DNA of 50,212 bases. Source: Caulobacter sp. 32-67-35 (GTDB taxonomy: Bacteria; Pseudomonadota; Alphaproteobacteria; Caulobacterales; Caulobacteraceae). The DNA is taken from NCBI GenBank assembly GCA_002280875.1, contig NCEV01000064.1, positions 1 to 50,212 on the forward strand. The letters are read 5' to 3'. The stretch's first letter is position 1. Each line of letters begins with the position of its first letter. Made by a program: the position numbers and the translations under genes. Shown one piece after another: positions 35,039-47,171 of the stretch. Below the pieces are notes generated by a model. That model was not told the DNA's origin and ran no database searches. It saw only the letters and a program-made list of their open reading frames with translations.

Positions 35039-35476
35039 TCAGTTTTGGGGAGAGGAAGACGGAAACCGAAACGCCCCAACCATCCGCTCCCTCCACCACC
35101 GCCCCAGCCAGCTTTCGACGCAGGCGCGGCCCCAGTAGGCGTGGATCATGCGATCCGGCGCCGACAGGATCGCGCAGTGCTTGGCGAAGGCCCGGGGCTC
35201 CATGCGGAACACCAGGACGTCGCCGGGACGAGCGGCGGCGAGGGAAACCGGGATCAGCCAGCGGCCGAGGGCCTCCAGCAGGATCTCGCGCTCACCGACC
35301 TCGGCCCAGTCGGGGCGGTAGGGCGGCGGGGGTTCGGGCTCGTCGCCGTAGAGGGCCCGCCAGATGCCCCGGATCAGCCCTAGGCAGTCGCAGCCGACAC
35401 CCCGCAGGCTGGCCTGGTGGCGGTAGGGCGTGCCGAGCCATTGACGGGCTTGGGTGAGAACCAGCTCCTCCCCCAC
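35039..35476 (-). CDS. GTA NlpC/P60 cell-wall peptidase (gp14-like), start inside a repeat
   Basis: About 145 residues from a GTG at 35476. The catalytic Cys is in GVGCDCLGLIRGIW and the His in FAKHCAILSAP, as in NlpC/P60 peptidases used by GTA and phage tails to cross the recipient wall. The conserved part begins at LTQARQWLGTPYRHQASLRG. Everything upstream of that in the open frame is translated from a palindromic repeat (35463-35574), so the native start has been replaced or lies within the repeat. No ATG is available at the expected place. Confidence 0.83.
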   Translation of the reverse strand: MGEELVLTQARQWLGTPYRHQASLRGVGCDCLGLIRGIWRALYGDEPEPPPPYRPDWAEVGEREILLEALGRWLIPVSLAAARPGDVLVFRMEPRAFAKHCAILSAPDRMIHAYWGRACVESWLGRWWRERMVGAFRFPSSSPQN

Positions 35477-35574
35477 TGGGGGAGGTGGCCCAGAGGGCCG
35501 GAGGGGGCAGCGCGGCGTTCGCCCAGATGGCCCCCTCAGTCGCTCCGCGACAGCTCCCCCAGAGGGGGAGCAGC
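35463..35574. repeat. composite palindromic repeat, copy 1 (A then inverted B)
   Basis: Two double-hairpin units face each other. Unit A has a CTCCCCC...GGGGGAG hairpin followed by GGCCCAGAGGGCCGGAGGGG. Unit B, inverted here, has the same first hairpin followed by GCTGTCGCGGAGCGACTGAG. It separates GTA gp14 and gp13 and supplies the apparent N-terminal codons of gp14. Confidence 0.9.
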
Positions 35575-35589
35575 TCTCCGCGCCCGCCC

Positions 35590-36234
35590 TCACCGCCTAC
35601 CCCCGTCATGCCGTTCGCCCTCGGAGGGATACAGCGTCAGAAAGTCCTCGCCCGGCATGGCCGGGAAGCCCCGGAAGTTGACGCCATTGGCGAATGTGCC
35701 GACGCAGGTCGCCCAGCGCTTGTCGCAAACCGCGCCCGGCGCAGGCGAAACCCCGCAGCGCGCATCACCGAGCACGGCGTCGCACAGCCGGCCAAAGGTG
35801 CGGCCCGCCACACGGTCGAGATCCGCCAGCGGCCCTTCCAGCTCGGCAGTGAAGGCCTCGCCCTCGCGGCGGATGCGGGCGATGCGCGCCGTCCACAGGC
35901 GCACGAACAGGTCCGGCCGGCTCCAGTCTACGCTCAGGCACGCCACCGACGCCCCGTCATAGAGCCCGGCCTCGATGTCCTCGACGGTCACCGCGCCGTC
36001 GTCCAGGGCCCCGAGCGCGGCCGACAGCCCCGGTGCGAAACCGGCCGCCGTCTCGTGGGCGCCGGCGGTCCAGCCGCTGGCGGCCCGGCAGGTCGCGCCA
36101 TCGACCACCAGGTCGCGGTCGTGGTCGGTGAAGCCCAGAACCACGGCATCGCTGCGGGTCAGGATCCAGGCGTGGCACAGGCTGGCCGCGCCCTCCTCAA
36201 GGCGTGCGGCCAGTTCGGCGGGAACGGCGCGCAT
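35590..36234 (-). CDS. GTA DUF2163 tail protein (gp13-like), internally shortened
   Basis: 214 residues. The N-terminal DUF2163 part (LCHAWILTRSDAVVLGFTDH) and the C-terminal CDKRWATCVGTFANGVNFRG motif are both recognisable. Relatives are near 290 residues, with a beta-rich block of about 75 residues between the LGDARCG motif and the C-terminal CDKR motif. Here the two are only about a dozen residues apart (LGDARCGVSPAPGAVCDKRW), so the block is missing in frame, near 35740. The Cys residues that would bind a cofactor remain. The start overlaps the gp12 stop by one base (TGATG). Confidence 0.83.
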   Translation of the reverse strand: MRAVPAELAARLEEGAASLCHAWILTRSDAVVLGFTDHDRDLVVDGATCRAASGWTAGAHETAAGFAPGLSAALGALDDGAVTVEDIEAGLYDGASVACLSVDWSRPDLFVRLWTARIARIRREGEAFTAELEGPLADLDRVAGRTFGRLCDAVLGDARCGVSPAPGAVCDKRWATCVGTFANGVNFRGFPAMPGEDFLTLYPSEGERHDGGRR

Positions 36235-36788
36235 CAGGCCCGTACCTCGACCAGCGGACAGGCGGTAATCCGCGCCGCCGCAAAGCCTTCCATCTGCACG
36301 TCCAGCCGATCGATATCGAAGCGCACCGGGGTGTCGAACTCGAACCCCGCCCTGACCGCCGCGCCGGCGGCGGGCGCCGTGACCAGGGTGACGAGGCCGG
36401 TCGCCAGATCCACCGTGAAGGCGGCCGGGGCCAGGGCGACGCCCGCCACCGCGACCTTGACCGTGCCGGCCACGGGTTTGGCGATGGTGCGGACCGCCGT
36501 TTCAGCGCCGGTCCCGTAGGTCTTGGCCAGCTGGAAGATCTTGCGGGCGCCGTCACCGGTTCCGATCGCCTGGTCCGTCGCCGCCGGCTGGGCCGAGGGC
36601 AGGCACGACTTGAAGTCGCTGGGATCGCGAAAGCGAAAGCCGTGCAGCCGCCCGCGCCGGGCCTCGAAGAAGGCGACCAGCTCGGCGGCCTCGTCCAGCG
36701 GCCGGGTCGCGGTGGCGATCAGGTAGCGGCGGCGGCCCTGCACCCACGGACTGGAGCGGCGCTCATAGCCCGAGGCCAGGGTCACCAC
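36234..36788 (-). CDS. GTA DUF2460 tail protein (gp12-like), native start missing
   Basis: 184 residues from the GTG at 36788; the C-terminal VRFDIDRLDVQMEGFAAARI motif and middle GRRRYLIATATRPLDEAAEL identify the DUF2460/gp12 distal tail family. The family's conserved N-terminus can be read upstream in frame (FHDIRLPARLAFGCTGGVER, about 36789-36857), but no ATG, GTG or TTG precedes it before an in-frame stop near 36903. A CTG near 36872 is the only nearby option. A start codon has therefore probably been lost, or a CTG is used. Confidence 0.8.
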   Translation of the reverse strand: MVTLASGYERRSSPWVQGRRRYLIATATRPLDEAAELVAFFEARRGRLHGFRFRDPSDFKSCLPSAQPAATDQAIGTGDGARKIFQLAKTYGTGAETAVRTIAKPVAGTVKVAVAGVALAPAAFTVDLATGLVTLVTAPAAGAAVRAGFEFDTPVRFDIDRLDVQMEGFAAARITACPLVEVRA

Positions 36789-37148
36789 CTGCGTGCGCCG
36801 CTCGACGCCGCCGGTGCAGCCGAAGGCCAGCCGCGCAGGCAGGCGGATGTCGTGGAAGTCGCGGCGCTTCAGTCGCGGCTCGGCGACGCAGCGCGCAGGC
36901 GAGCATCACAAAGTCAGCGGAGCGATGGGTCCTGGGCACAAGGCCCAGGAAGGCGGGGAAAAGTGAATGCTGGCGGGCAAGAGTTGAGCGCTCGCAAAAC
37001 GCAGTGCGCGATTAAGTCTGCGTCATGACCCGCTTTTCACTTCTTGCGCAGGTCGCCCGCCCCTACGTATGAGGCAACATCTGAAGCGCGATGGCCGCCG
37101 AAACCGGCTTCCACTTTCGGCTATCGCGCTTTGGAACTGGAGACCGTC
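36789..37148. other. gap with gp12 N-terminal remnant and a third copy of the CCTTCC-type repeat
   Basis: 36789-36863 still encodes the conserved start of gp12. 36923-36954 carries the repeat seen twice at 34895-35030 (core CCTGGGCACAAGGCCCAGGA). From 36955 to 37148 nothing clear is coded; this stretch should hold the promoter of the DUF805 gene that starts at 37149. Confidence 0.55.
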
Positions 37149-37607
37149 ATGGACTGGAAGAACCTGTTTTTCTCGGCTGAGGGCCGCATCGGCCGCCAGG
37201 CGTTCTGGATCGGTTGGCTGTGCCTGCTGGGCGCCAACGTGGTGGCCGGCTGGGTGCCGTTCTTCGGTTGGGCCCTGTCTCTGGTCTCGATCTGGTGTTC
37301 GATCTGCATCCACACCAAGCGCCTGCACGACATGGGTCAGACCGGCTGGTGGCAGGCCCTGCCCTGGGTGTTCGGTCCGATCCTGGTGTTCGGCTCGGCC
37401 ATCTCGATCGGCGTCACGGCGGCCCTGGCGGCGGTCAATAACGGCGAGCCCGATCTGGCGGCGATCACCGCCCTGGGTGGCTTCTTCATCTCGCTGTTCG
37501 TCGCCTTCGCAGTGTGGCTGGCCTTCACCCTGTGGGTCGGCTGCAGCACCGGCCAGCCGGGCGAGAACAAGTACGGCCTGGCGCCGACGTCGGCGGTGGC
37601 GATCTAG
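37149..37607 (+). CDS. DUF805 family membrane protein
   Basis: A 152-residue membrane protein with about four hydrophobic segments. The family marks are WKNLFFSAEGRIGRQAFWIG at the N-terminus and RLHDMGQTGWW in the loop, with a C-terminal GENKYG motif. The function of the family is unknown; members sit in the inner membrane. It is on the plus strand inside the minus-strand GTA cluster, between gp12 and the tape-measure gene. A repeat-C copy lies upstream and a composite palindromic repeat lies 7 bases downstream, so it looks like inserted cargo. The ATG at 37149 begins the conserved domain. Confidence 0.9.
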   Translation: MDWKNLFFSAEGRIGRQAFWIGWLCLLGANVVAGWVPFFGWALSLVSIWCSICIHTKRLHDMGQTGWWQALPWVFGPILVFGSAISIGVTAALAAVNNGEPDLAAITALGGFFISLFVAFAVWLAFTLWVGCSTGQPGENKYGLAPTSAVAI

Positions 37608-37614
37608 GAACGAG

Positions 37615-37729
37615 GCTGCTCCCCCTCTGGGGGAGCTGTCGCGGAGCGACTGAGGGGGTTAGCTGGACATAGGCCGCGCTGCCCCCCTCCGGCCCTCTGG
37701 GCCACCTCCCCCAGAGGGGGAGGAGCTGG
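37615..37729. repeat. composite palindromic repeat, copy 2 (B then inverted A)
   Basis: Unit B (37616-37658) and inverted unit A (37683-37729) fill the gap between the DUF805 stop and the tape-measure stop at 37731, leaving only 1-8 bases at each side. It has the same hairpins as copy 1. Confidence 0.9.
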
Positions 37730-37730
37730 T

Positions 37731-38240
37731 TCAAAACCCTCTCGCCCCCAAACTCACCGCCCGCGCCAGGGCCTGGGCCAGATGAGCATCCGACCGCGCA
37801 AGACCTGACGCATCGCCGCCCTGCACATTGACCGTGACTGACACGCCGCCGCTTCCCAGCGGCTCCACGTTCCCGGCGCAGGAAGGTCGAAACACCTCCG
37901 GCCCACGCTCGCCGACCAGATAGGCGCCGCCCGGCAGCACCGGGCCGCCGTCCGCTCGCGCTCCGGCAAACGCGCCAGACACCGCCTCGGCCAGACCGCC
38001 GCCCTTCATCGCCGCGCCCGCCGCGCCGATCACCGCCCGCGCCAGTTCAGCCAGCGAGATCTCGCCGTCGGCGGCGGCGCTGGCCAGGGACCTGGCCAGG
38101 CTGGATCCGGCCCGCGCGAACGCCTCCTCGATCGACGACGCCGCGCGCTGGGCCGGCGCCTTCAGGGCCTCCAGCGACGCGGCGGCCTCGGCGGCGCGGG
38201 CGGGGACGGACGACAGGCCGTCGGTGTCGAAACCACTCAT
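37731..38240 (-). CDS. GTA short tape-measure protein (gp11-like)
   Basis: A 169-residue protein with an Ala-rich helical N-terminal half and a Gly-rich C-terminal half (ARADGGPVLPGGAYLVGERG; SVTVNVQGGDASG) typical of the C-terminal part of phage tape-measure proteins. GTA tape measures are short because GTA tails are short. The ATG at 38240 overlaps the chaperone stop (ATGA). Its stop at 37731 directly touches a palindromic repeat. Confidence 0.85.
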   Translation of the reverse strand: MSGFDTDGLSSVPARAAEAAASLEALKAPAQRAASSIEEAFARAGSSLARSLASAAADGEISLAELARAVIGAAGAAMKGGGLAEAVSGAFAGARADGGPVLPGGAYLVGERGPEVFRPSCAGNVEPLGSGGVSVTVNVQGGDASGLARSDAHLAQALARAVSLGARGF

Positions 38241-38419
38241 GGCGGGGTCTCCTCGTCGGGAAAGCGGGCGATCAGGGCGTCCAGGGTCGGACGGGTCAGG
38301 ACCGGCGCGGCGGGCGCCTGTGTCAGCATCCGCCATTCGCGCAGGGACAGACGCCAGAAGGCCTCGGGCGGGATGTTCAGCCGGACGGCCAGCCGCAGGG
38401 CGTCGGGCCAGTCGTTCAT
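38237..38419 (-). CDS. GTA tail-assembly chaperone-like small protein
   Basis: A 60-residue protein with NIPPEAFWRLSLREWRML, the pattern of the small DUF2376/tail-chaperone protein that follows gp10 in GTA clusters. It overlaps gp10 and the tape measure by four bases each, which supports it as a real gene despite its size. In phages such proteins keep the tape measure soluble before tail-tube assembly. Confidence 0.82.
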   Translation of the reverse strand: MNDWPDALRLAVRLNIPPEAFWRLSLREWRMLTQAPAAPVLTRPTLDALIARFPDEETPP

Positions 38420-38691
38420 GCGGAAGCCGCGAGCGCCGCAGCCACAGCGGCGACGGCTTCGGGGATGGTGACAGCGGAGAGGTCGACCGGCTCGCCCTCG
38501 ATCAGGGCGGCCAGCACGGCCAGCAGCTCGCGGGCCGACAGGGTCTCCATCCGGGCGGGGAGTTCGCGCCAGTCAGTGAGGGCCAGGGCGCCTTCGATGC
38601 GGGCCAGGGCGCCGAGCGTCAGGCACAGGCGACGCGGGGCGCCGGCCAGGTGGACAGTGACTTCGCCTCGGGCGGGGTTTGGGGGTGGCAT
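38416..38691 (-). CDS. GTA gp10-like tail assembly protein
   Basis: A 91-residue protein with RGEVTVHLAGAPRRLCLTLG and ALARIEGAL..DWRELPARM, matching the GTA gp10 family found between the major tail protein and the chaperone. Its exact role in the particle is not known; an assembly function is likely. The 130-base gap before it is mostly a palindromic repeat. Confidence 0.83.
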   Translation of the reverse strand: MPPPNPARGEVTVHLAGAPRRLCLTLGALARIEGALALTDWRELPARMETLSARELLAVLAALIEGEPVDLSAVTIPEAVAAVAAALAASA

Positions 38692-38709
38692 GGGTGTCTC
38701 CTGTGATGG

Positions 38710-38818
38710 CCCCCTCCGGCCCTGCGGGCCACCTCCCCCGGAGGGGGAGGATCTAGAGGCGCCGAGCAGATGCTCCCCCTCTGGGGGAGCTGTCGCGGAG
38801 CGACTGAGGGGGGCAGCG
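38710..38818. repeat. composite palindromic repeat, copy 3 (inverted A then B)
   Basis: Inverted unit A (38710-38752, with GCGGGCC in place of TCTGGGCC) and unit B (38771-38814) separate the major tail protein stop (38824) from gp10. It occupies nearly all of that gap. Confidence 0.9.
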
Positions 38819-38823
38819 CGGCT

Positions 38824-39240
38824 CTAAATCGCCGTGAACGTCACCGCCCCCGCCGACGCCAGCGACAGCGCGAACGCCGCCTCGCCGTCGTGGTCGCCGG
38901 CATATTCCAGCGCCGCGACGATGAACGGTCCTTCCAGCTGGCCGAAGTCCGGGATCACCAGCCGCCACACGCGGGCCGACTGGTCGAAGAAGCTCTGGCG
39001 CACCTGGGCGTCGGAAGCGGCGTCGCGGAACACGCCCGAGCCCGACACCGCGCAGGCGCGCACGCCGGCCCCGGCCAGCAGCTCGCGCCAGCGGCCGGCG
39101 CTGTCGCTGTCGGTCGCGTCGATGGTCCTGGCATTGAGGCTGATCGTGCGCGCCCGCAGGCCCGCGACAGTGTGGAAGGTTGGGGTGGCGGCCCCGTCGC
39201 TGATCTTCAGCAGGATGTCCTTGCCGGCTTGAGCGGCCAT
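38824..39240 (-). CDS. GTA major tail protein (gp9-like)
   Basis: A 138-residue tail-tube protein. The start (AQAGKDILLKISDGAATPTF), the RTISLNARTIDATDSDSAGR block and the VPDFG-like LVIPDFGQLEGPFIVAALEY block are those of the TP901-1/GTA major tail family. It polymerises into the tail tube around the tape measure. It sits 16 bases after gp8. Confidence 0.93.
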   Translation of the reverse strand: MAAQAGKDILLKISDGAATPTFHTVAGLRARTISLNARTIDATDSDSAGRWRELLAGAGVRACAVSGSGVFRDAASDAQVRQSFFDQSARVWRLVIPDFGQLEGPFIVAALEYAGDHDGEAAFALSLASAGAVTFTAI

Positions 39241-39256
39241 GGGAGTGCTCCGTGGA

Positions 39257-39646
39257 TTAGAGGGGTTCAGTCACCGCCCGCACGCGCACGATCCCGAGGG
39301 TCAGTTCGCGCTCGGCGGCGGGGAAGACGTCGGCATAGGCGACGCGCAGGTTGACGAGGCGCCGGCCGGCGATGGTCGGGCGGGCGTCGTGGATCACGGC
39401 GCGGACGGCGGCGACCACGGCGCGGGCCTCCTCCGGTCCGCCGAATTTCGAGACGCAGGTCAGGGTCAGCAGGTGTTCGATCACCTCGCCCTCGACCACG
39501 CGGCTCTCGGTGCGGCTGACGGCCAGGCAGGGATAGGTCGGCACGCGGGGGCTGCGGGCATAGATCCGCTGGCCGAGGATGGCGGTGACGGCCGGCGCGG
39601 CCTTGAGGGCGGCGACGAGGCCGTCGGCCAGGGCTTGATCGCTCAC
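39257..39646 (-). CDS. GTA DUF3168 tail-completion protein (gp8-like)
   Basis: A 129-residue protein with ALADGLVAALKAAPAVTAIL and the VIEHLLTLTCVSKFGGPEEA block of the DUF3168/gp8 family, which joins the tail to the connector. The GTG at 39646 overlaps the upstream connector stop (GTGA), so it is preferred over the longer open frame. In most GTA clusters a head-closure gene (gp7) lies between the connector and gp8; here none is present. Confidence 0.88.
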   Translation of the reverse strand: MSDQALADGLVAALKAAPAVTAILGQRIYARSPRVPTYPCLAVSRTESRVVEGEVIEHLLTLTCVSKFGGPEEARAVVAAVRAVIHDARPTIAGRRLVNLRVAYADVFPAAERELTLGIVRVRAVTEPL

Positions 39647-39912
39647 AGGCGAGCCTTTCGGTAAGGGGCCAGCCACGGCTCGACCAGGGCCAGCGAGGGC
39701 TCGCCGGTCTCGCGATGGGCGTAGGCGTGGGAGACCAGGGTCAGGATCGCCAGACGCAGCGGGGCGGGGCTGGCGGGGGTCAGGGTCAGGCCGGTGGCGG
39801 CGGCGACGCGGGCCTCGGCGGCGTCGATCAGCAAGGTGATCGTGGCGTCTTCCGAGGCATCGGACGCACGCAGAAACGCCCGGGCTTCGGCCAGGGTGAG
39901 GGATTGGGGCAT
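39643..39912 (-). CDS. GTA head-tail connector protein (gp6-like)
   Basis: An 89-residue helical protein. LTLAEARAFLRASDASEDAT and LLIDAAEARVAAATGLTL, with LRLAILTLVSHAYAHRE and the PWLAPYR ending, are those of gp6-type head-tail connectors that form the ring under the portal. It is short compared with the roughly 190-residue GTA homologue of Rhodobacter, but other phage members are of this size. It directly overlaps gp8. Confidence 0.85.
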   Translation of the reverse strand: MPQSLTLAEARAFLRASDASEDATITLLIDAAEARVAAATGLTLTPASPAPLRLAILTLVSHAYAHRETGEPSLALVEPWLAPYRKARL

Positions 39913-39940
39913 GGAGGATTTTCCTGGAAAGGGCGGCGCT

Positions 39941-40047
39941 GCCCCCTCAGTCGCTCCGCGACAGCTCCCCCAGCGGGGGAGCAGCTGCGCGGCGTAGATC
40001 CTCCCCCTCTGGGGGAGGTGGCCCAGAGGGCCGGAGGGGGCAGCGCC
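39941..40047. repeat. composite palindromic repeat, copy 4 (inverted B then A)
   Basis: Inverted unit B (39942-39984) and unit A (39999-40041) fill most of the gap between the capsid stop (40061) and the connector start (39912). Confidence 0.9.
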
Positions 40048-40060
40048 AAGGCTGGCCGAA

Positions 40061-41281
40061 TTAGCTGACCGCGAACTTCAGCAGCTTCACGGCATCGAAG
40101 TTCTGCACCCCGCCGCCGACGCGCTTGGTGGTGTAGAACAGCACGTGCGGCTTGGCGGAGTACGGGTCGCGCAGCACCCGGACGCCGGCGCGGTCGGTGA
40201 TCAGATAGCCCTTCTCGAAGTCGCCGAACGCCACCGCCAGGCTGTTCGCCGCAACATCGGGCATGGCCTCGATCTCGGTCACCGGATAGCCCAGCAAGCT
40301 GGCCGACTGGCCCGGCTGCAGGGCCGCGTTCCAGATGTAGTTGCCCTGGCTGTCCTTGAACTTGCGCACCACGCTGACCGTGCGGCGGTTCATCACGAAG
40401 CGGCCGTTCTGGCGATACTGGGTCTTGGTGGCGTAGATCAGGTCGATCAGCTTGTCGGTGGGATTGGCCGCCGCGAAACCGCCGGCGACGCCGGTGGCGA
40501 GGTAGCCCATCTGACCCCAGGTGTAGCTGGCGTCCGGCGCGGCGGTGTAGGCCAGCAGGCCCTTGGGCTTGTTGACGCCGTCGCCGCTGATGAAGGCCGT
40601 GGTCTCCTGCGCCGCGAAGGCGTCCTGCACCTCCTCGGCCAGCCACTCGTCGATGCTGACATAGGCGTCGTCGAGCAGGGCCTGGGTCGCGGCGGGGCTG
40701 GCGTAGAGCTCGCCGGCCGGGAAATCGATGATGTCCAGGGTGGGCGCCGTGGTCTCCGGACGCGCCGCGGTCTCGGCCACCCAGGCGGCGGCAAGGCCGG
40801 TGGGCGACACCGGCTTGCGGAACACGCCGGCGCCGATGGTGCGGACCTGACAGATCTCGCGCATCGGGCTGGTCGCCGCCAGACGACGCAGGATCAGCCG
40901 CTCCAGCTCCGGCGGCGCCACATAGCCGCCGGCCGTGGCCACGCCTTCCGACAGGCCCTTGGCTTCCAGCAACAAGCCGGGCGTTTCGCCGGTCTTGATA
41001 TAGCGGTCGAAGGCGGCCTTGCGCTCGTCCACCCGCGCCAGCGGTGCATCACCGGCCAGGGAAGGCCTGCGGCTGTCGGCGAGCACCCGGTCCAGACGGT
41101 CCTGGGCGCGGGAGACGGCCTCGTCGATGCGGCTGACCTTCTCCTCCAGCAGCACGTCGGCCCGCTTGGTCTCGATGGCGCTCAATCGCTGGTCGTTGGC
41201 GGCCTTGAAGGCCTCGAATGCGGCCAGCACCTCATGCATCATCGCGCCCGGCGAGGCCGGGGCGTGTTTGGTCTCTTTCAT
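40061..41281 (-). CDS. GTA HK97-fold major capsid protein (gp5-like)
   Basis: A 406-residue protein. The N-terminal coiled-coil delta domain (residues about 15-75) is followed by a likely protease cleavage region before AFDRYIKTGE, then the HK97 fold: VATAGGYVAPPELERLILRR, AWVAETAARPETTAPTLDII, FISGDGVNKPKGLLAY and FVMNRRTVSVVRKFKDSQGN. The delta domain would be removed by the prohead protease. The ATG at 41281 has GGAGAA upstream, which fixes the start. Appears intact. Confidence 0.95.
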   Translation of the reverse strand: MKETKHAPASPGAMMHEVLAAFEAFKAANDQRLSAIETKRADVLLEEKVSRIDEAVSRAQDRLDRVLADSRRPSLAGDAPLARVDERKAAFDRYIKTGETPGLLLEAKGLSEGVATAGGYVAPPELERLILRRLAATSPMREICQVRTIGAGVFRKPVSPTGLAAAWVAETAARPETTAPTLDIIDFPAGELYASPAATQALLDDAYVSIDEWLAEEVQDAFAAQETTAFISGDGVNKPKGLLAYTAAPDASYTWGQMGYLATGVAGGFAAANPTDKLIDLIYATKTQYRQNGRFVMNRRTVSVVRKFKDSQGNYIWNAALQPGQSASLLGYPVTEIEAMPDVAANSLAVAFGDFEKGYLITDRAGVRVLRDPYSAKPHVLFYTTKRVGGGVQNFDAVKLLKFAVS

Positions 41282-41297
41282 GGAGTTCTCCGAAAAA

Positions 41298-41453
41298 GCC
41301 CTTCCCCCTTGATGGGGGAAGGGTTTGGGATGGGGGTGACTACGGCGGTGACCGGTCACCCCGACGGTCGGATGGAGGCGCGGCGCCGGACGGCTCGTCC
41401 TGACGCGCTGTCACCCCCATCCCCGCCCTTCCCCCATCGAAGGGGGAAGGGAG
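41298..41453. repeat. large inverted repeat, CCCTTCCCCC type
   Basis: CCCTTCCCCCTTGATGGGGG (41298 on), followed by GTTTGGGATGGGGGTGAC, is answered by an inverted copy ending at about 41453 (TCACCCCCATCCCCGCCC then TTCCCCC...GGGGGAAGGG). The architecture (hairpin plus tail, two units face to face) is like the composite A/B elements but the sequence is different. It fills the gap between the capsid start and the VOC gene. Confidence 0.8.
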
Positions 41454-41472
41454 TTCTGTTAGCGTTCGCCGC

Positions 41473-41838
41473 ATGACCGATCACGCCACGCCCAACCTGC
41501 CGTCCCGCGACTTCGAAACCACGGCCCGCTTCTATGCGGCGCTGGGGTTCGAGCAGGGCTGGCGCGATAACGGCTGGATGATCCTGAAGCGCGGGTCGCT
41601 GATGCTGGAATTCTTCCCGTATCCGGACCTGGATCCGGCGAGCAGCTCGTTCGGCTCGTGCCTGCGGCTCGACGACGTCGACGGGTTCTACGCCGTGTGC
41701 CAGGCCGCCGGCCTGCCCGAGACACACCTGGGCTGGCCCCGCCTGCATCGGCCCAGGCTGGAAGCCAGCGGCCTGCGCATCGGAGCCCTGATCGACCCCG
41801 ACGGCTCGCTGCTAAGACTGATCCAGAACCCGGACTAG
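41473..41838 (+). CDS. VOC (glyoxalase/bleomycin-resistance) family protein
   Basis: A 121-residue single-domain protein of the vicinal oxygen chelate superfamily: SRDFETTARFYAALGFEQGW, the LMLEFFPYPDLDPASSSFGS strand region and IDPDGSLLRLIQ at the end. It closely resembles small bleomycin-resistance-like proteins that act as binding proteins without clear enzymatic residues. The substrate is unknown. It is on the plus strand, inserted with the next gene between GTA capsid and protease genes. Confidence 0.9.
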   Translation: MTDHATPNLPSRDFETTARFYAALGFEQGWRDNGWMILKRGSLMLEFFPYPDLDPASSSFGSCLRLDDVDGFYAVCQAAGLPETHLGWPRLHRPRLEASGLRIGALIDPDGSLLRLIQNPD

Positions 41839-41895
41839 CCGCGCGTCGGGCTTCTTCAATCTTGGCTGCAGCGATGATCCCCCGTAGGTTGCGCC

Positions 41896-42300
41896 ATGAC
41901 GTCGAAACTCACCGCCCTTGAAAGGGCTGTCGCTGAAGCTATTGCCCGGGAATATCCCGACGCCACGGATGCATTGCTCCGGCAGCTTCAGAACGCTGTC
42001 GTCACCAGCCGAGACTTCACTGGCGTCGGCTTCTTCACCGAGTTCGACGTGCCTAGGGATGGCCCGCCAGCCAAGGACTTGGTCGGCCCGGTGGGGCATA
42101 TCTGCGCATTGGTCGGGTCTGAGCGGTACCCGCTGGAATTCATGCTCTACGTCCGCGGCGGGTACGCTGAGATGATCGAGGCCTACAGCTTCGAGGACGG
42201 CTACGGCGATCTGGATTTGTTGACGGCGGAATTCACGCCTCCGGTGGAGAGCGACTTTCAGACAGTCGAAGCCGAGCCCCAGGCAACATCGGAAAAGTAA
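41896..42300 (+). CDS. hypothetical protein, cargo gene in the GTA cluster
   Basis: A 134-residue acidic protein that I do not recognise. It begins with a helical region (LTALERAVAEAIAREYPDAT) and continues as alternating strands (GVGFFTEFDVPRDGPPAKDL; YPLEFMLYVRGGYAEMIEAY). There is no signal peptide. Its last 68 bases overlap the convergent prohead protease gene, which suggests the insertion cut into or was fitted to the protease 3' end. Confidence 0.72.
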   Translation: MTSKLTALERAVAEAIAREYPDATDALLRQLQNAVVTSRDFTGVGFFTEFDVPRDGPPAKDLVGPVGHICALVGSERYPLEFMLYVRGGYAEMIEAYSFEDGYGDLDLLTAEFTPPVESDFQTVEAEPQATSEK

Positions 42301-42667
42301 CCACCGACACCTCCCAAAGCTCCACCCGCTTGAGTACCCGCAAGCTCCCGTCCTGACGCGCCTTGACCTGGCGAAAGCCGATGGAGAGGCCGTCCAGCGC
42401 GCCGGCCTCCACGAGCGCCGCGACCAGCCGGCCGCGCGGGGTCGAGCGCAGGATGCGGCCACGGACGAACAGGCCGCGCGCGTCCTCGACGACCTCGTCC
42501 CAGACGCCGATCGGCTCGGCGTCGTCGTGCTGGTGCAGCATCTTGACCCCCGCCGCGCCGGTCTCGGCCAGGCTTTCGGCGAAGGCGCCGGCGGCGGTGA
42601 CGTCGTCGTTGAGGTCCCGGGTCCAGAACAGCGAGGCGTGGCCCTCGATCTTCAGATCATCACTCAT
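42233..42667 (-). CDS. GTA HK97-family prohead protease (gp4-like)
   Basis: A 144-residue serine protease that matures the capsid. IEGHASLFWTRDLNDDVTAA, the catalytic His in VKMLHQHDDAEPIGVWDEV and the Ser in ALDGLSIGFRQVKAR are visible, as is VELWEVSVVTFPMLPGAR. It is shorter than many relatives, and its C-terminal codons are shared with the convergent gene at 41896-42300. The ATG overlaps the gp3.5-like stop by four bases. Confidence 0.88.
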   Translation of the reverse strand: MSDDLKIEGHASLFWTRDLNDDVTAAGAFAESLAETGAAGVKMLHQHDDAEPIGVWDEVVEDARGLFVRGRILRSTPRGRLVAALVEAGALDGLSIGFRQVKARQDGSLRVLKRVELWEVSVVTFPMLPGARLRLSESRSPPEA

Positions 42668-42909
42668 CGGTCGCGCTCCAGCCGGGATTCGATGCGGGCC
42701 AGCGCGGCGCGGGTGGCGACGGCCTGCTCTTCCAGCCGGGCCAGGCGCTCGGCGACGGGGGCCTGGGTGTCGAGGCGCTTGTGCATCTCGTCGATCCGGG
42801 CCGAGGCGCGCCCGGCCCACATCAGGGCGGTCGCGGCCTGCAGGGCGACGGCCACGATCAAGGCGACCGAGATCTGGCGGTCCAGCCGCCAGCGGTTGGG
42901 GGTGGTCAT
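42664..42909 (-). CDS. small GTA membrane protein (gp3.5-like)
   Basis: An 81-residue protein with one hydrophobic segment (ISVALIVAVALQAATALMWA) followed by a helical, charged region (VAERLARLEEQAVATRAALA) that could form a coiled coil. Proteins of this shape sit between portal and protease in many GTA clusters. The role is unknown. The ATG at 42909 lies just after a palindromic repeat. Confidence 0.75.
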   Translation of the reverse strand: MTTPNRWRLDRQISVALIVAVALQAATALMWAGRASARIDEMHKRLDTQAPVAERLARLEEQAVATRAALARIESRLERDR

Positions 42910-42929
42910 GTTGGGTGTCTCTTCAAAGT

Positions 42930-43043
42930 CCTCCCCCTGAAGGGGGAGGGGTCGGCGGAGCCGACGGAGGGGGAAGTTGGCCGGCGTGGGATGACTTCCC
43001 CCTCCGGCCCTGCGGGCCGCCTCCCCCTTCAGGGGGAGGACTT
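42930..43043. repeat. composite palindromic repeat, copy 5 (variant)
   Basis: A divergent member: CTCCCCCTGAAGGGGGAG followed by GTCGGCGGAGCCGAC at 42931-42973, and an inverted A-like unit with CGGCCCTGCGGGCCGCC at 42996-43040. It fills the gap between gp3.5 and the portal stop (43053). Confidence 0.85.
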
Positions 43044-43052
43044 GTCGCGGAG

Positions 43053-44198
43053 TCAGCCGTCCAGCCCCGCCAACCTTCTCCGCTCCTCGGGCGTGAGGAA
43101 ACTGGCCGCGTCCAGCCGCGCCCACAGGGCGTCGCGTTCGGCGGAGAAGGCGGGCACGGCGTCGAGGTCGGGGGCGATGCGGACGCCTGGGAACTTGACC
43201 TCCAGCCAGGCCGTCATGGCGCGCGCCGCCCGCTCGACCAGCGGCGCGACCGTGTGGCGCCAGAAGGCGGCGTTGGCCTCGCGATAGTTGGCGTAGGTGG
43301 CGTCGCCGGGCACCCCCAGCAGCTGGGGCGGCACGCCAAAGGCCAGGGCGATCTCGCGGGCGGCGGCGTGCTTGCCGTCGGTGAAGTCCATCTCGGCTGG
43401 GGTCAGCGACATGGCCCGCCAGTCGAGGCCGCCTTCCAGCAGCAGCGGCCGGCCGGCGTTCCCCGCCCCGGAATGGGCCCCGGCCAACTCGGCCTTCAGG
43501 CGGTCGAACTGCTCTTCCGAGAGCCGGTCGCCAGCCTCGCGGTTTGAATAGACCAGGGCGCCGGACGGCCGGGCCGAGTTGTCCAGCAGCGCCTTGTTCC
43601 AGGCGCTGGAGGCGTTGTGCACATCGATGGCGAAGGCCGCCGCCTCCAGGGGCGAGAGGCCGTAATGGTCGCTGGTGGGGTTGAACAGCTTCAGGTGCAA
43701 CACCGGCAGCCAGCCGTCGGCGTCGCGCCCGATGCGCACCGTGCGGCCGCCGGCCTGGTAGTCATAGGCCAGCGGCCAGCCGCGCGGTCCGGGGACAAGC
43801 GTCATGCGATCGGGGCGCAGGGCGTAGAGTTCGCTCGGCGTCTGGTCGTCGCCGCCGGCCTCCAGATAGGCGTTGCCGGCAGTCTGCAGGTTGCCGAAGA
43901 ACGCCTCCATCAGGTCGGGGCCGCCCTGTTCGGGATTGGGCTTGCGCAGGAGCTTCTGCGCCGGATGGTCGGGGGCGCGCCGGCCGCCCTCGAAGACGAT
44001 CAACGGCGTCGCGGCGGCGGCCTCGGCGATCATCCGCACGCAGCGATAGACGACGGGATTCTTGGCGAAGCCTTCGGACGCCAGGGCGGCGTAGTCGCGG
44101 GGGGTCCACTGCGGTCGGCCGCCGGTGGTCAGGGCGATCAGGCGGGCGGCGCGGGAGTCTTTGACTTCCGGCGGGCGGGGTCTGGGGAACAGGGGCAT
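43053..44198 (-). CDS. GTA HK97-family portal protein (gp3-like)
   Basis: A 381-residue portal. GFAKNPVVYRCVRMIAEAAA, ALRPDRMTLVPGPRGWPLAY, VLHLKLFNPTSDHYGLSPLE and IALAFGVPPQLLGVPGDATY are signature blocks of the family. It forms the DNA entry and exit ring. The ATG at 44198 begins the conserved region; the open frame upstream is non-conserved. The length is normal. Confidence 0.94.
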   Translation of the reverse strand: MPLFPRPRPPEVKDSRAARLIALTTGGRPQWTPRDYAALASEGFAKNPVVYRCVRMIAEAAAATPLIVFEGGRRAPDHPAQKLLRKPNPEQGGPDLMEAFFGNLQTAGNAYLEAGGDDQTPSELYALRPDRMTLVPGPRGWPLAYDYQAGGRTVRIGRDADGWLPVLHLKLFNPTSDHYGLSPLEAAAFAIDVHNASSAWNKALLDNSARPSGALVYSNREAGDRLSEEQFDRLKAELAGAHSGAGNAGRPLLLEGGLDWRAMSLTPAEMDFTDGKHAAAREIALAFGVPPQLLGVPGDATYANYREANAAFWRHTVAPLVERAARAMTAWLEVKFPGVRIAPDLDAVPAFSAERDALWARLDAASFLTPEERRRLAGLDG

Positions 44199-44265
44199 GG
44201 GGGTTTGGCTCCAGAATTGGAGTTGAGAACAAATAAAGAACATTTTAGAGTTGCGCCGACCTAGC

Positions 44266-44308
44266 ACCTCCCCCTCTGGGGGAGGTGGCCCAGAGGGCCG
44301 GAGGGGGC
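44266..44308. repeat. single A unit upstream of DUF559 gene
   Basis: One unit A (two hairpins plus GGAGGGGG) ends 17 bases before the DUF559 ATG. It is matched by an inverted A at 44676-44719, so the gene is enclosed between A units in opposite orientation. Confidence 0.88.
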
Positions 44309-44325
44309 CAGCACGGGAGAAACCG

Positions 44326-44769
44326 ATGGAGGCGCCATTACGAACGCGGCTGACTGCCCAGCGCCTGCGACGCGAACTGACGTTGCCGGAAATCCTGCTG
44401 TGGCTATGCCTGAAGGGACGGCGACTGAACGGCCTGCACTTTCGTAAGCAGCATCCCGTCGGCCCCTACATTCTGGACTTCTACTGCGCGGAGCATCGGC
44501 TGGCCGTGGAGGTCGATGGCGAATTGCATGCCCTGGACGACCGTCCAGCCAGGGACGCGATCCGGGACCGCCGGTTCGCAGAGCGGGGTATCGCGACCCT
44601 TCGCATCACCGCCCGCGACGTGCTGGCTTCGCCCGATGGGGCGGCGGGGCGCATACTGGAGTACCTCGGCGCGGGCCCCCTCCGGCCCTCTGGGCCACCT
44701 CCCCCAGAGGGGGAGGAGCTGGACCGCGCTGCTGCTCCCCCGCTGGGGGAGCTGTCGCGGAGCGACTGA
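44326..44769 (+). CDS. DUF559 endonuclease-like protein flanked by and reading into palindromic repeats
   Basis: 147 residues. The conserved DUF559 domain (about 15-113) includes LRRELTLPEILLWLCLKGRR, GLHFRKQHPVGPYILDFYC and LAVEVDGELHALDD, with the Asp...ExD-type residues of the restriction-endonuclease-like (Vsr-related) fold. Family members are small and of unknown function. The C-terminal tail from about residue 118 (GPLRPSGPPPPEGEELDRAA to ELSRSD) is translated from the composite repeat at 44675-44775, so the repeat sets the stop codon. It is on the plus strand between portal and terminase. A nuclease role is inferred. Confidence 0.9.
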   Translation: MEAPLRTRLTAQRLRRELTLPEILLWLCLKGRRLNGLHFRKQHPVGPYILDFYCAEHRLAVEVDGELHALDDRPARDAIRDRRFAERGIATLRITARDVLASPDGAAGRILEYLGAGPLRPSGPPPPEGEELDRAAAPPLGELSRSD

Positions 44770-44775
44770 GGGGGT
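44675..44775. repeat. composite palindromic repeat, copy 6 (inverted A then B)
   Basis: Inverted unit A (44676-44719) and unit B (44733-44774) overlap the 3' coding end of the DUF559 gene and reach to within 3 bases of the terminase stop (44778). Confidence 0.9.
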
Positions 44776-44777
44776 CT

Positions 44778-45946
44778 TCACAACGCCCTAAGTCTCGGCG
44801 CCCTCCCCACCCCCAGCATCAACTCGCTCACCGCCCAGACCAGCGCATCCGCCCGGTCCGGACTGTGCCCAAGATCACCCGTCCCCAGCCCCATCAGCTC
44901 CTCCTCCAGCGCCGGAAAGGCGCCGCAGTGAACCACCCGGCCCTGCTCGTACAAGGCCGCCACCGGTTCGGCCCGCGCCCGTTTGCCCAGCGAGGCCCGC
45001 ACCAGTTTCACCGCGCAGGGCGGGTCGGCCTGGACCAGCACGGCGCGCACCATGTCGCCGCCCTGGTTGGCTTCGGCGACCAGGGCGTGGGCGTCGAACT
45101 CCTGCGCGGCGATCACCGCGCGTCGCGCCCAGCCATTGGGGGAAAGCCCCTTGGCCGAGCGGTCGGCCAGCACGAAGGCGCGCCCCTCCAGCCTGCCGAC
45201 CACCACGATCCCGCAGGCGTCCCCCGTTGCCGTGGCCGGCGGATCGACCGCCACCACCACCCGGTCGAAGCGCGCGGGACGCGCCCCGCGACACCGCGCC
45301 AGGTCCTCGGCGCGGAACAGGCCGCCCTCGTCCTCGACGATGACGCCGTCCAGCTCCTGGGCCGCCAGGCGAGTGCCGCCATAGAGCGCCTGCAGGGTCG
45401 ACAGGAACGCCGGCGCCAGGTTGTCGGCATTGGCCGCCGTACCGGCCCGGGTAACCGCGACGCCGGGCTCGGCGATCAGGGTCTTCAGGGCGCGGATCGG
45501 CCGGGGCGTGGTTGTGACCACCAGCCGGGGGTCCTCGCCCAGCCGCAGGCCAAACCGCAGCATGGCCAGGGTCTCGGCCGGCTTGGGCCAGGCGCAGAAC
45601 TCGTCGGCCCAGGCGGCGTGGAACTGCGGGCCGCGTAAGGAGTCGGGGTCTTCGGCCGAGAAGGCGTAGGCGACGGCGCCGGCGAGAGCGCCTTGAGTCC
45701 CGAAGGCCCCTCGATCATCACCTCGCGCACGTCGTGGAAGGTGGGGCCCACCAGGGCGATGCTCAGCGGCTGACCGATGAGGTCGGCCACCCAGCTGGCC
45801 CCGGCGAAGGTCTTGCCCGCACCGCGTCCCCCCAGGAATAGCCAGGCCGACCAGGGGTCAGTCGGCGGGCGCTGGTGGGGCTCGGTTGGTCGGAGGCTGG
45901 GAAGGCACGCCGCGACCAGGTCCGGCGGCGCCGTCTTCAGCCACAT
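44778..45946 (-). pseudogene. GTA large terminase (gp2-like) split by a deletion/frameshift
   Basis: The N-terminal part holds the Walker A motif (LFLGGRGAGKTFAGASWVAD) and IALVGPTFHDVREVMIEGPS, then leaves frame after KALSP. The rest can be read in another frame from AVAYAFSAEDPDSLRGPQFH, with the Walker B/catalytic-like AAWADEFCAW, the nuclease domain Asp in VVVAVDPPATATGDACGIVV, and the C-terminus. About 20 residues normally lying between are missing (junction about 45676-45684). The start is taken at the ATG at 45946 (MWLKTAPPDLV); an ATG at 46042 is open but its extra codons overlap the upstream gene. As written no full terminase can be made. Confidence 0.85.
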
Positions 45947-46304
45947 GTTTAATGTCTCGGGAAGCGACAAGCTTAGCCATGCGTCGGCGGACGTCGGCAT
46001 GAAGTTCGGCGACACGTTCGGGTGTCCAGTCGGGTCGGTCATTCATCGGGGTCTCCTCGGGGTCCGACGAGCGCGCACGCGACGGCAGGGCGGTGATCGC
46101 CGCCACCGCCCGTCGTCCGGTCTCGCGGAACAGTTTCAGGTATCGACCGGCGCGCGCCATCTGCTCGGCGGTCCTCAGGCGAGCCACGGGTGGGTCGCTC
46201 TGGGTGGTCTCACACGCCTCCTTGGCCGCCTCGACATAGTAGGCGGTGACCAGGTCCTGCACGTAGGCAAGGGCGGCTTCGATCTCTTCGCTTCTCTGGG
46301 CCAT
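45858..46304 (-). CDS. GTA gp1-like protein upstream of terminase (possible small terminase)
   Basis: 148 residues. The N-terminal half is helical (ALAYVQDLVTAYYVEAAKEA; EQMARAGRYLKLFRETGRRA). DWTPERVAELHADVRRRMAK in the second half could be a short helical module. The frame runs on over the terminase start as low-complexity sequence. Its position directly before the large terminase is that of GTA gp1, which has been proposed to be a small terminase; that is position-based inference. The ATG at 46304 begins the structured part. Confidence 0.65.
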   Translation of the reverse strand: MAQRSEEIEAALAYVQDLVTAYYVEAAKEACETTQSDPPVARLRTAEQMARAGRYLKLFRETGRRAVAAITALPSRARSSDPEETPMNDRPDWTPERVAELHADVRRRMAKLVASRDIKHVAEDGAAGPGRGVPSQPPTNRAPPAPAD

Positions 46305-46562
46305 GACACAAAGATACGGGACCAGCGGGCGCCTCTGATCCAGAGGTGCGAGAAAGTTATAAGCTGTTGATTTTATGAGGTTCGATTCGCTATCCGCAGA
46401 GGATAGAGGGCAGCTTATCCCCGTAGTCGGGGTCTTCTCGCTGGCAAGGCCCAGGACATCCTGCGCCATAACGGGGTGGCGTTGAGCAAGCGGGATTATG
46501 CGGTCTCTGCGATAGGATCTGAAGGCGCAAGAGCCTGTGGATAACTCTGATGCGCGGCGCTA
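46305..46562. promoter_or_regulatory. probable GTA cluster promoter region
   Basis: This is the only sizeable gap upstream of the minus-strand GTA genes, so the main promoter should be here. It holds the inverted repeat CTATCC-GCAGA-GGATAG (46390-46406), a GGGG hairpin at 46420-46433 (CCCCG-TAGT-CGGGG), AT-rich patches around 46350-46380, and one exact match in complement to the DnaA box TTATCCACA (46536-46544). Known Caulobacter GTA regulators bind in such a region, but their sites cannot be assigned from sequence alone. Confidence 0.5.
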
Positions 46563-46671
46563 GCCCCCTCCGGCCCTCTGGGCCACTTCCCCCAGAGGGG
46601 GAGGAGCTAGGTCGCGCTTTGTTGGCCGCTCCCCTCTTGGGGGAGCTGTCGCGGAGCGACTGAGGGGGTCT
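46563..46671. repeat. composite palindromic repeat, copy 7 (inverted A then B)
   Basis: Inverted unit A (46564-46607) and unit B (46628-46670) sit between the GTA promoter region and the stop of the YcgN-type gene (46683). Confidence 0.9.
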
Positions 46672-46682
46672 GCGCCGCCCTG

Positions 46683-47171
46683 TCAGTCCCCATCCGGGTC
46701 GTAAACCTCGTCCCCGCGATCGGCCATCAGGTCAGTCGCCACAAAATCCATCGCGTCCTCGGCCACCTCGAACGACAGCTCGCTGACGGTCTGGTCGCGC
46801 ACCGAAATGCCCTGCTTGTGGGTGCTGTCAGGATCGCCCGTCACCAGCGGGTGCCAGTCGGGCAGGGTCTTGCCCTCATGCAGGCGGCGATAGGCGCAGG
46901 AGGGGGGCATCCACTCCAGGTCCTCGATATTGTAGGGGGTCAGCTTGATGCAGTCGGGCACCGTTTTGCGGCGGTTCGCATAGTCCTTGCAACTGCAGCG
47001 GTGCTCGTCAAACAGCTGGCAGTGCACACGCGTGGGGATGACCTCGCCGGTATCTTCGTCTTCGAAGCGAACCAGGCAGCAAAGACCGCAGCCGTCGCAT
47101 AGACTCTCCCACTCGGGGACGGTCATCTGCTGGAGGGACTTCGTCTCCCAGAAAGGTTTGCGCACCATCAT
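46683..47171 (-). CDS. YcgN/YkgJ-type cysteine-cluster protein
   Basis: A 162-residue cytoplasmic protein with a CxxCxxCC cluster in SLCDGCGLCCLVRFED (Cys25, 28, 31, 32) and further Cys in HRCSCKDY, VPDC and PPSCAY. This matches the conserved YcgN (UPF0260) family, which is probably metal or iron-sulfur binding but has no known activity. There are two adjacent ATG codons; the second is equally possible as start. It is divergent from the PBP gene, with a 54-base gap. Confidence 0.92.
   Translation of the reverse strand: MMVRKPFWETKSLQQMTVPEWESLCDGCGLCCLVRFEDEDTGEVIPTRVHCQLFDEHRCSCKDYANRRKTVPDCIKLTPYNIEDLEWMPPSCAYRRLHEGKTLPDWHPLVTGDPDSTHKQGISVRDQTVSELSFEVAEDAMDFVATDLMADRGDEVYDPDGD

Follow-up and report, generated by a model that had tools for sequence, protein, structure and literature searches.

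A small gene of the DUF559 family lies inside the gene-transfer-agent (GTA) cluster of Caulobacter sp. 32-67-35 and takes its last codons from a palindromic repeat, raising the question of whether the gene and the repeats around it form one unit and whether the encoded protein moves them. We analyzed the whole stretch of 50,212 nt that carries the gene (the window; contig NCEV01000064.1, here contig C18), which belongs to an assembly of 4.10 Mb and 163 contigs that is 96% complete. Pfam identifies a GTA TIM-barrel protein, a portal protein and a terminase in the window, with the DUF559 gene between portal and terminase. The gene and the repeat units (A and B) of the window are arranged as follows.

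44267..44307, + strand: A unit 5' of the DUF559 gene, a 41-nt core with its 3' tail pointing to the gene; its parts are a hairpin CCTCCCCC-loop-GGGGGAGG, an inner hairpin and the 3' tail GGAGGGGG
44326..44769, + strand: DUF559 gene, 147 aa from its ATG
44676..44716, - strand: A unit at the 3' end of the DUF559 gene
44734..44774, + strand: B unit behind the 3' A unit, supplying the stop codon of the DUF559 gene
35467..35571: short composite, A(+) B(-), tails inward
37618..37723: short composite, B(+) A(-), tails inward
38710..38812: short composite, A(-) B(+), tails outward
39942..40040: short composite, B(-) A(+), tails outward
42931..43038: diverged A/B composite, with 6 and 1 mismatches to the 41-nt pattern
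46564..46668: short composite, A(-) B(+), tails outward

The window gene matches PF04480 at 90.5 bits (E 8e-26), passing the Pfam gathering score of 20.6, which bears out the DUF559 assignment of the earlier note. That note had also described the order of an A unit, the DUF559 gene and a composite providing about 30 terminal residues and the stop; the coordinates agree, as the 3' A and B units encode roughly the final 30 residues and the stop codon (44767-44769). The upstream A unit does lie just 5' of the ATG, although the spacing given as 17 bases measures 18 nt from the 41-nt core to position 44326. The A units flanking the gene are inverted relative to each other (inverted pair I10, 44263-44312 and 44671-44720, 96% complementary). 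All six further composites that had been noticed between 35.4 and 46.7 kb were recovered, five of them good and one (~42931-43038) diverged. The original observation is therefore confirmed, and the pattern is more general than could be seen in the window. The adjoining terminase (44778-46042) is split between two overlapping frames (45485-46042 and 44778-45563), which looks like a frameshift, and the open frame around the same terminase match in relatives is mostly longer than the 359 aa of the window.

Below, genomes are labelled G, loci L and repeat types F1 to F5, F5 being the type found in the window. A and B share a 41-nt pattern, for which the 4.1-Mb genome contains 91 sites at ≤3 mismatches and 0 when the pattern is reversed as a control, so that the repeat exceeds chance. 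F5 units are arranged as 31 inverted doublets with tails inward (start-to-start distance 64 or 65 nt), 5 pairs with tails outward and 19 single units. Within the 11.3 kb of the GTA cluster (window positions 35400-46700) there are 14 of the 91 units vs. 0.25 expected, three of which lie at the DUF559 gene. A search of Rfam over 35.3-46.8 kb gave only three chance miRNA matches, below gathering score.

Each repeat unit consists of a pyrimidine/purine hairpin, a linker or inner hairpin, and a purine tail whose sequence is the mirror image of the hairpin's purine arm (arm/tail examples: GGGGGAGG/GGAGGGGG, GGGAGAAGG/GGATGAGGG, GGGAGAGGG/GGGTGAGGG). Given this mirror symmetry, the unit as a single strand could fold into a purine-motif triplex. 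Of 142 units, 129 could be parsed (13 unparsed), and removal of 13 repeats of the same unit left 116 distinct units, for which the fit to the purine motif was 0.930 for allowed and 0.858 for exact positions, compared with 0.803 for swapped tails (maximum of 100 swaps, 0.822) and 0.714 for shuffled tails. Watson-Crick pairing of the tail with the 5' arm was considered and rejected, since the purine arm copied exactly in direct orientation scored 0.771, below the 0.858 of the exact mirror. Judged by their sequences, the repeats share the architecture of class II intrastrand triplex motifs (TM), a hairpin with a mirroring third strand.

Such motifs were described from more than 260 genomes by Holder et al. 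2015 (PMC4666352), with triplex formation of TM_ECO demonstrated in vitro, not in cells, and with types A and B pairing in inverted order. The repeats studied here are alike in having a hairpin, a short linker and a mirror tail, and in the inverted A/B pairs; they are unlike in that many units hold an inner hairpin where TM has a 3-nt linker. They differ further in being linked to DUF559, whereas the triplex motif was described without an associated mobility gene, none having been found at the E. coli sites. The published coordinates place TM_ECO no. 9, one of 23 copies in E. coli K-12, 167 nt downstream of ycjD, the DUF559 gene of K-12, and a decayed TM copy can be recognized by eye at the 3' end of ycjD. 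By the score defined below, ycjD is not bracketed (score 18). The chance that one of 18 TM sites falls within 300 nt of ycjD is about 0.004, in a test conceived post hoc. Most of the ycjD region is present in 3333 of 5426 E. coli genomes, and a 2026 paper (PMC12817139) reports ycjD at this position when the eef efflux operon is missing. As the triplex form is already known, the new part, within the open-licence PubMed Central literature searched, is the link to DUF559; a search of titles and the starts of abstracts in the same collection found nothing on DUF559 and the spread of repeats.

What kind of protein does the gene encode? An AF2 model of the first 125 residues (mean pLDDT 89) matches the solved structures 3hrl (E 4e-5), I-Bth0305I (3r3p, 8e-4) and Vsr (1vsr, 0.014), and, less pointedly, Toxoplasma mitoribosome proteins at 1e-3. 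Profile matches point in the same direction (3hrl, 2e-38; 3r3p, 9e-4), and DUF559 is predicted to be a small nuclease of Vsr/EDxHD-like fold. Among the PD-(D/E)XK residues, D51 and E62 are invariant in 73 sequences, but D64 (in at least 90%) stands where K is expected; E22 is invariant as well, H68 occurs in 90% or more, and R80 is invariant or present in at least 90%. The dN/dS of the gene at the window site was 0.08-0.28 in five comparisons, and 0.06-0.34 over 13 partly non-independent comparisons, with the highest value between two copies in one genome. Substitution patterns thus indicate that the gene is under purifying selection. A RAYT transposase was considered as the mover in the Caulobacter genome and rejected as unlikely: the Y1 transposase domain (PF01797) had 0 matches there (assembly 96% complete), and it was not found in 12 of 14 genomes searched, this one included, but is present in the other two.

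Five DUF559 genes were found in the Caulobacter genome, and inverted palindromic repeats flank 5/5, each gene having its own repeat type, F1 to F5 (F4 resembles F5). None of the other four is on the contig of the GTA cluster. Bracketing was scored as the best inverted alignment between the 300 nt before and the 300 nt after the domain, with a cut-off of 40; the five genes score 59-97 vs. null maxima of 22-26, obtained from only 5-7 null windows per gene. A scan of named genomes with an alignment of these five proteins confirmed at least 580 stretches, the best 80 of which were kept; after omission of four loci too close to contig ends (L050, L064, L081, L086), 76 of these and the five own genes made 81 testable loci. 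As controls, a simple length rule picked out 425 non-DUF559 frames of at least 100 aa from the full set of 85 loci. The expectation that repeats flank DUF559 genes far more often than other genes was borne out: 57/81 DUF559 loci were bracketed at a score ≥40, compared with 3/425 control frames (Fisher p 5e-52), and without the Caulobacter genome 52/76 vs. 3/425 (p 4e-48). Direct (non-inverted) flank copies reached 40 at 29/81 DUF559 loci vs. 3/425 controls because the doublets contain both orientations.

By record titles, many of them of MAGs, bracketed loci among the best 80 were 33/41 in Alphaproteobacteria, 11/19 in Beta/Gammaproteobacteria, 3/5 in unspecified proteobacterial MAGs and 5/11 in other phyla. 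The scan favours kin of a bracketed gene, so these fractions are not rates for all DUF559 proteins. Within the window's family, own five included, 90 of 113 testable loci score ≥40; this set comprises best matches and fetched genus loci, not all DUF559 genes (115 collected; L124 and L144 left out at contig ends; L145, L227 and L230 removed as duplicates). Unbracketed at this cut-off are 24/76 loci outside the Caulobacter genome and 23/113 family loci. At L047, L066, L091 and L096 (two of them in Salinimicrobium), the DUF559 domain opens frames of 567-627 aa, which may represent fusions or read-through into the gene that follows.

Do particular DUF559 proteins go with particular repeats? Coupling was expressed as the correlation of protein similarity with repeat similarity for pairs of loci from different genomes. 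Spearman's rho was 0.52 for the 142 loci with scores ≥40 (500 permutations, maximum 0.06) and 0.68 for the 90 family loci. When repeats were shuffled within genomes (20 family genomes with two or more loci), the mean was 0.20 and the maximum 0.46, with 0/2000 shuffles reaching 0.68. The failure of within-genome shuffles to match means that repeats differ between the DUF559 types of a single genome, and the coupling across genomes means that a given DUF559 type has a similar repeat elsewhere; the proposal that repeat subfamilies track DUF559 phylogeny is upheld.

Repeat abundance gives a more mixed picture. Five or more F1 copies occur in 18/20 family genomes that encode a DUF559 of the L001 type (E ≤1e-35) vs. 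7/129 others (p 1e-15, with cut-offs picked after viewing the tables), and at least two of the seven exceptions (G018, G024) have a DUF559 gene bracketed by F1-like repeats. Among 27 genomes of the genus, F1 abundance correlates with L001-type DUF559 at rho 0.56 and with L005-type at 0.24; for F5 the values are 0.62 and 0.47. Since F5 follows the L001-type no less than the L005-type, its abundance shows no F5 specificity. That genomes without DUF559 have no repeats is only weakly true: five or more F1 units were found in 24/118 family genomes with DUF559 vs. 1/31 without (p 0.03), and five or more F5 units in 30/118 vs. 2/31 (p 0.03). Eleven of the 31 DUF559-less genomes fall outside the matches listed, and none of these has ≥5 units because every genome with ≥5 units is among the matches listed. 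The earlier note had named abundant repeats in genomes lacking the gene as an observation against its proposal, and two of the 31 DUF559-less family genomes are indeed repeat-rich, G001 with 80 F5-like units and G071 with 63 F1 units; both are draft assemblies, in which no DUF559 match was found even at E 10. These exceptions could reflect loss of the enzyme after repeat spread, or assembly gaps. A further DUF559-less genome, G108, has 6 F5 units. In G071, 12 of the 26 F1 units listed are within 130 nt of the beginning of a contig, which suggests that these repeats interrupt the assembly.

The gene and its repeats also recur together as one piece. Near-identical F1-type copies (92-94% over 533-673 nt) with unmatched surroundings occur inside G132 (L120/L183 and L177/L182), G128 (L121/L205) and G104 (L129/L192). 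In an alignment of nine element copies, homology begins and ends at the outer hairpins; as L120, L178 and L205 are the same site in different genomes, and L121 and L183 likewise, the nine copies come from six independent sites. Measured between its outer ends, the element has a median length of 519 nt (100 loci). The repeat-DUF559-repeat unit thus forms a discrete element, about 520 nt long, of which a single genome can contain copies at several unrelated places, as with insertion sequences. No target-site duplication was recognized by eye in the nine-copy alignment. L180 and L226 (G096) are DUF559 loci that have 780 nt in common at 100% identity, perhaps with an adjoining insertion sequence.

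Different states of one site were sought at L179, the flanks of which were found on both sides in 7/12 genomes. The full element is present in G076, a gene-less inverted doublet in G132 and a single hairpin remnant in G128; G062, G051, G057 and G151 have other repeats and lack the F1 element. The earlier note had predicted empty sites; full, gene-less, remnant and other-repeat states were seen, but no clean empty site was found. The L195 site was rejected for this comparison, its flanks being rearranged. Other palindromic repeats, GTCATTCCCGCC..GGCGGGAA and GTCCTTCGAGGC..CTCAGGATGAGG, sit at the same intergenic sites in related genomes (L264, L266, L272, L273, L275, L276).

The best explanation, to which we assign a probability of roughly 0.75, is that DUF559 and the repeats on either side of it constitute a single mobile element, in which the nuclease would mobilize both itself and the short copies. 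From the bracketing, the matching of repeat and DUF559 types, the element at unrelated sites, the states of the L179 site, the purifying selection and the predicted fold, we infer recognition, cutting, way of insertion and mobilization in trans. The element would have inverted folded repeats as its ends and a small Vsr/EDxHD-like nuclease as its only gene. The nuclease may recognize the folded terminus of its cognate repeat type on a strand exposed by replication, repair or hairpin extrusion, and would cut at the edge of the folded repeat; the host would then re-join or copy the released segment, or repair the break using another copy as template. The short A/B doublets would correspond to non-autonomous copies that the nuclease moves in trans.

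DUF559 would then be to these repeats as RAYT is to REP, though unrelated to RAYT, a role suggested by the earlier note and supported as the best explanation of the sequence patterns; bracketing, coupling and the mobility tests favour it, and unbracketed genes, repeat-rich DUF559-less genomes and the unspecific F5 abundance weigh against it, as do the failure to recognize a target-site duplication or find a clean empty site, the unbracketed ycjD of E. coli and the mismatch-repair role proposed for a Caulobacter DUF559 protein, VsrA (PMC12907096). The likeness to REP/REPIN and RAYT (TnpA_REP; REPtrons) lies in dispersed palindromic repeats in inverted doublets and in a gene adjoining inverted copies of its own repeat type (PMC3733652, PMC8266576), and here too, inverted copies of a palindrome that recurs genome-wide flank the DUF559 genes. 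In contrast, RAYT is an HUH/Y1 tyrosine transposase, whereas the protein here belongs to PF04480 with a predicted Vsr-like fold, and REP stems are GTAG-tagged, whereas these repeats have a hairpin and a mirror tail, with no GTAG tag seen beside the hairpin in units inspected by eye. For tnpAREP, PMC8266576 states that evidence of mobility is lacking; the DUF559 element, unlike it, is present at several sites of one genome. The CGTC-tagged REPs of Di Nocera et al. 2013 (PMC3733652) are also palindromic inverted pairs, mainly alphaproteobacterial, and that paper reports no dedicated transposase for them; they differ in having 8-9-bp stems with a CGTC tag and a CCA tail. Insertion sequences with MITEs resemble the element in having one gene between terminal inverted repeats along with short gene-less copies, but a known transposase domain was not seen in the DUF559 element and target duplication was not recognized. 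Vsr and the EDxHD homing endonucleases (1vsr; I-Bth0305I, 3r3p) resemble it in predicted protein fold, and we know of no link between these families and bracketing repeats.

The strongest rival, which we regard as rather unlikely, is a homing-type variant, in which DUF559 is a free-standing endonuclease that targets the repeat and cuts gene-less copies; host recombination would copy the gene in with the repeats as homology arms, and the repeats would multiply by another route. It partly overlaps with the mobile-element explanation, and the odds of the readings do not sum to one. A homing endonuclease, I-Bth0305I, is a close structural match of the predicted model, and the L179 site, full in G076 and gene-less in G132, is as this variant would have it. 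The GTA junction speaks to it as well. We took the best 30 of 46 terminase-bearing genomes (61 searched) and G091, leaving out L239 and L251, where the portal is not in view; DUF559 lies between portal and terminase in 28 of the 29 loci with both in view. In the remaining one (G132), a gene-less F2 doublet takes its place, again in keeping with homing. Similarity across the junction ranges from 0.41 to 0.97 for DUF559 and from 0.78 to 0.98 for the terminase, with no correlation between the two (rho 0.12), a further point for homing, and repeat similarity follows DUF559 similarity at rho 0.31 (1/2000 permutations; partial 0.29). Frequent replacement of the cassette at a preferred site would account for this, as would very rapid evolution in situ. 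The near-fixation of DUF559 at this junction is the behaviour of a resident rather than a roaming gene and counts against the mobile reading. Homing, however, leaves unexplained why F1 copy number tracks the matching DUF559, and why element copies in unrelated flanks stop at the outer hairpins. At L243, L245, L257 and L259, the junction has another repeat type, CCGCCCCC..GGGGGCGG..GGTGGGGG, with a C in the purine arm and a T at the mirrored tail position, a change in step.

It is improbable that DUF559 is a passenger, that is, a Vsr-like repair or defence nuclease in repeat-rich intergenic spots, with the repeats moved otherwise or acting as terminators. VsrA, a DUF559 protein of Caulobacter that triggers the SOS response in a methyltransferase mutant, has been proposed to be a mismatch-repair enzyme (PMC12907096), and repeats occur in G001 and G071, where no DUF559 gene was found; such a passenger would, however, hardly be bracketed so much more often than other frames (57/81 vs. 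3/425), match its repeat type within genomes, or travel with the repeats as one piece to unrelated sites, and no Y1 transposase was found in the Caulobacter genome.

Some phage nucleases serve packaging next to the terminase, and the position of DUF559 in 28/29 loci and the crowding of F5 units in the cluster's 11.3 kb would suit a window copy domesticated for packaging with incidental repeats, but this is the least probable reading, as the four other DUF559 genes of the genome are bracketed alike off the GTA-cluster contig and G132 retains portal and terminase without DUF559.

Returning to the mobile element, we propose more tentatively, at somewhat less than even odds, that DUF559 represents a new transposase class: a lone Vsr-type nuclease that would recognize an intrastrand triplex at both ends of a ~500-nt element, move the element and its gene-less relatives, and be the origin of the triplex repeats in hundreds of bacterial genomes, including Escherichia coli (YcjD). 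Two surveys, of triplex repeats by Holder et al. and of CGTC REPs by Di Nocera et al., leave open how such repeats spread, and a DUF559 nuclease travelling inside repeats of this sort, as seen across Proteobacteria and in some other phyla, is a concrete candidate for the mover. If this is true, a domain of unknown function would acquire a role, repeat-encoded protein tails such as that of the window gene would be explained, and E. coli K-12 ycjD and Caulobacter VsrA would be testable laboratory models.
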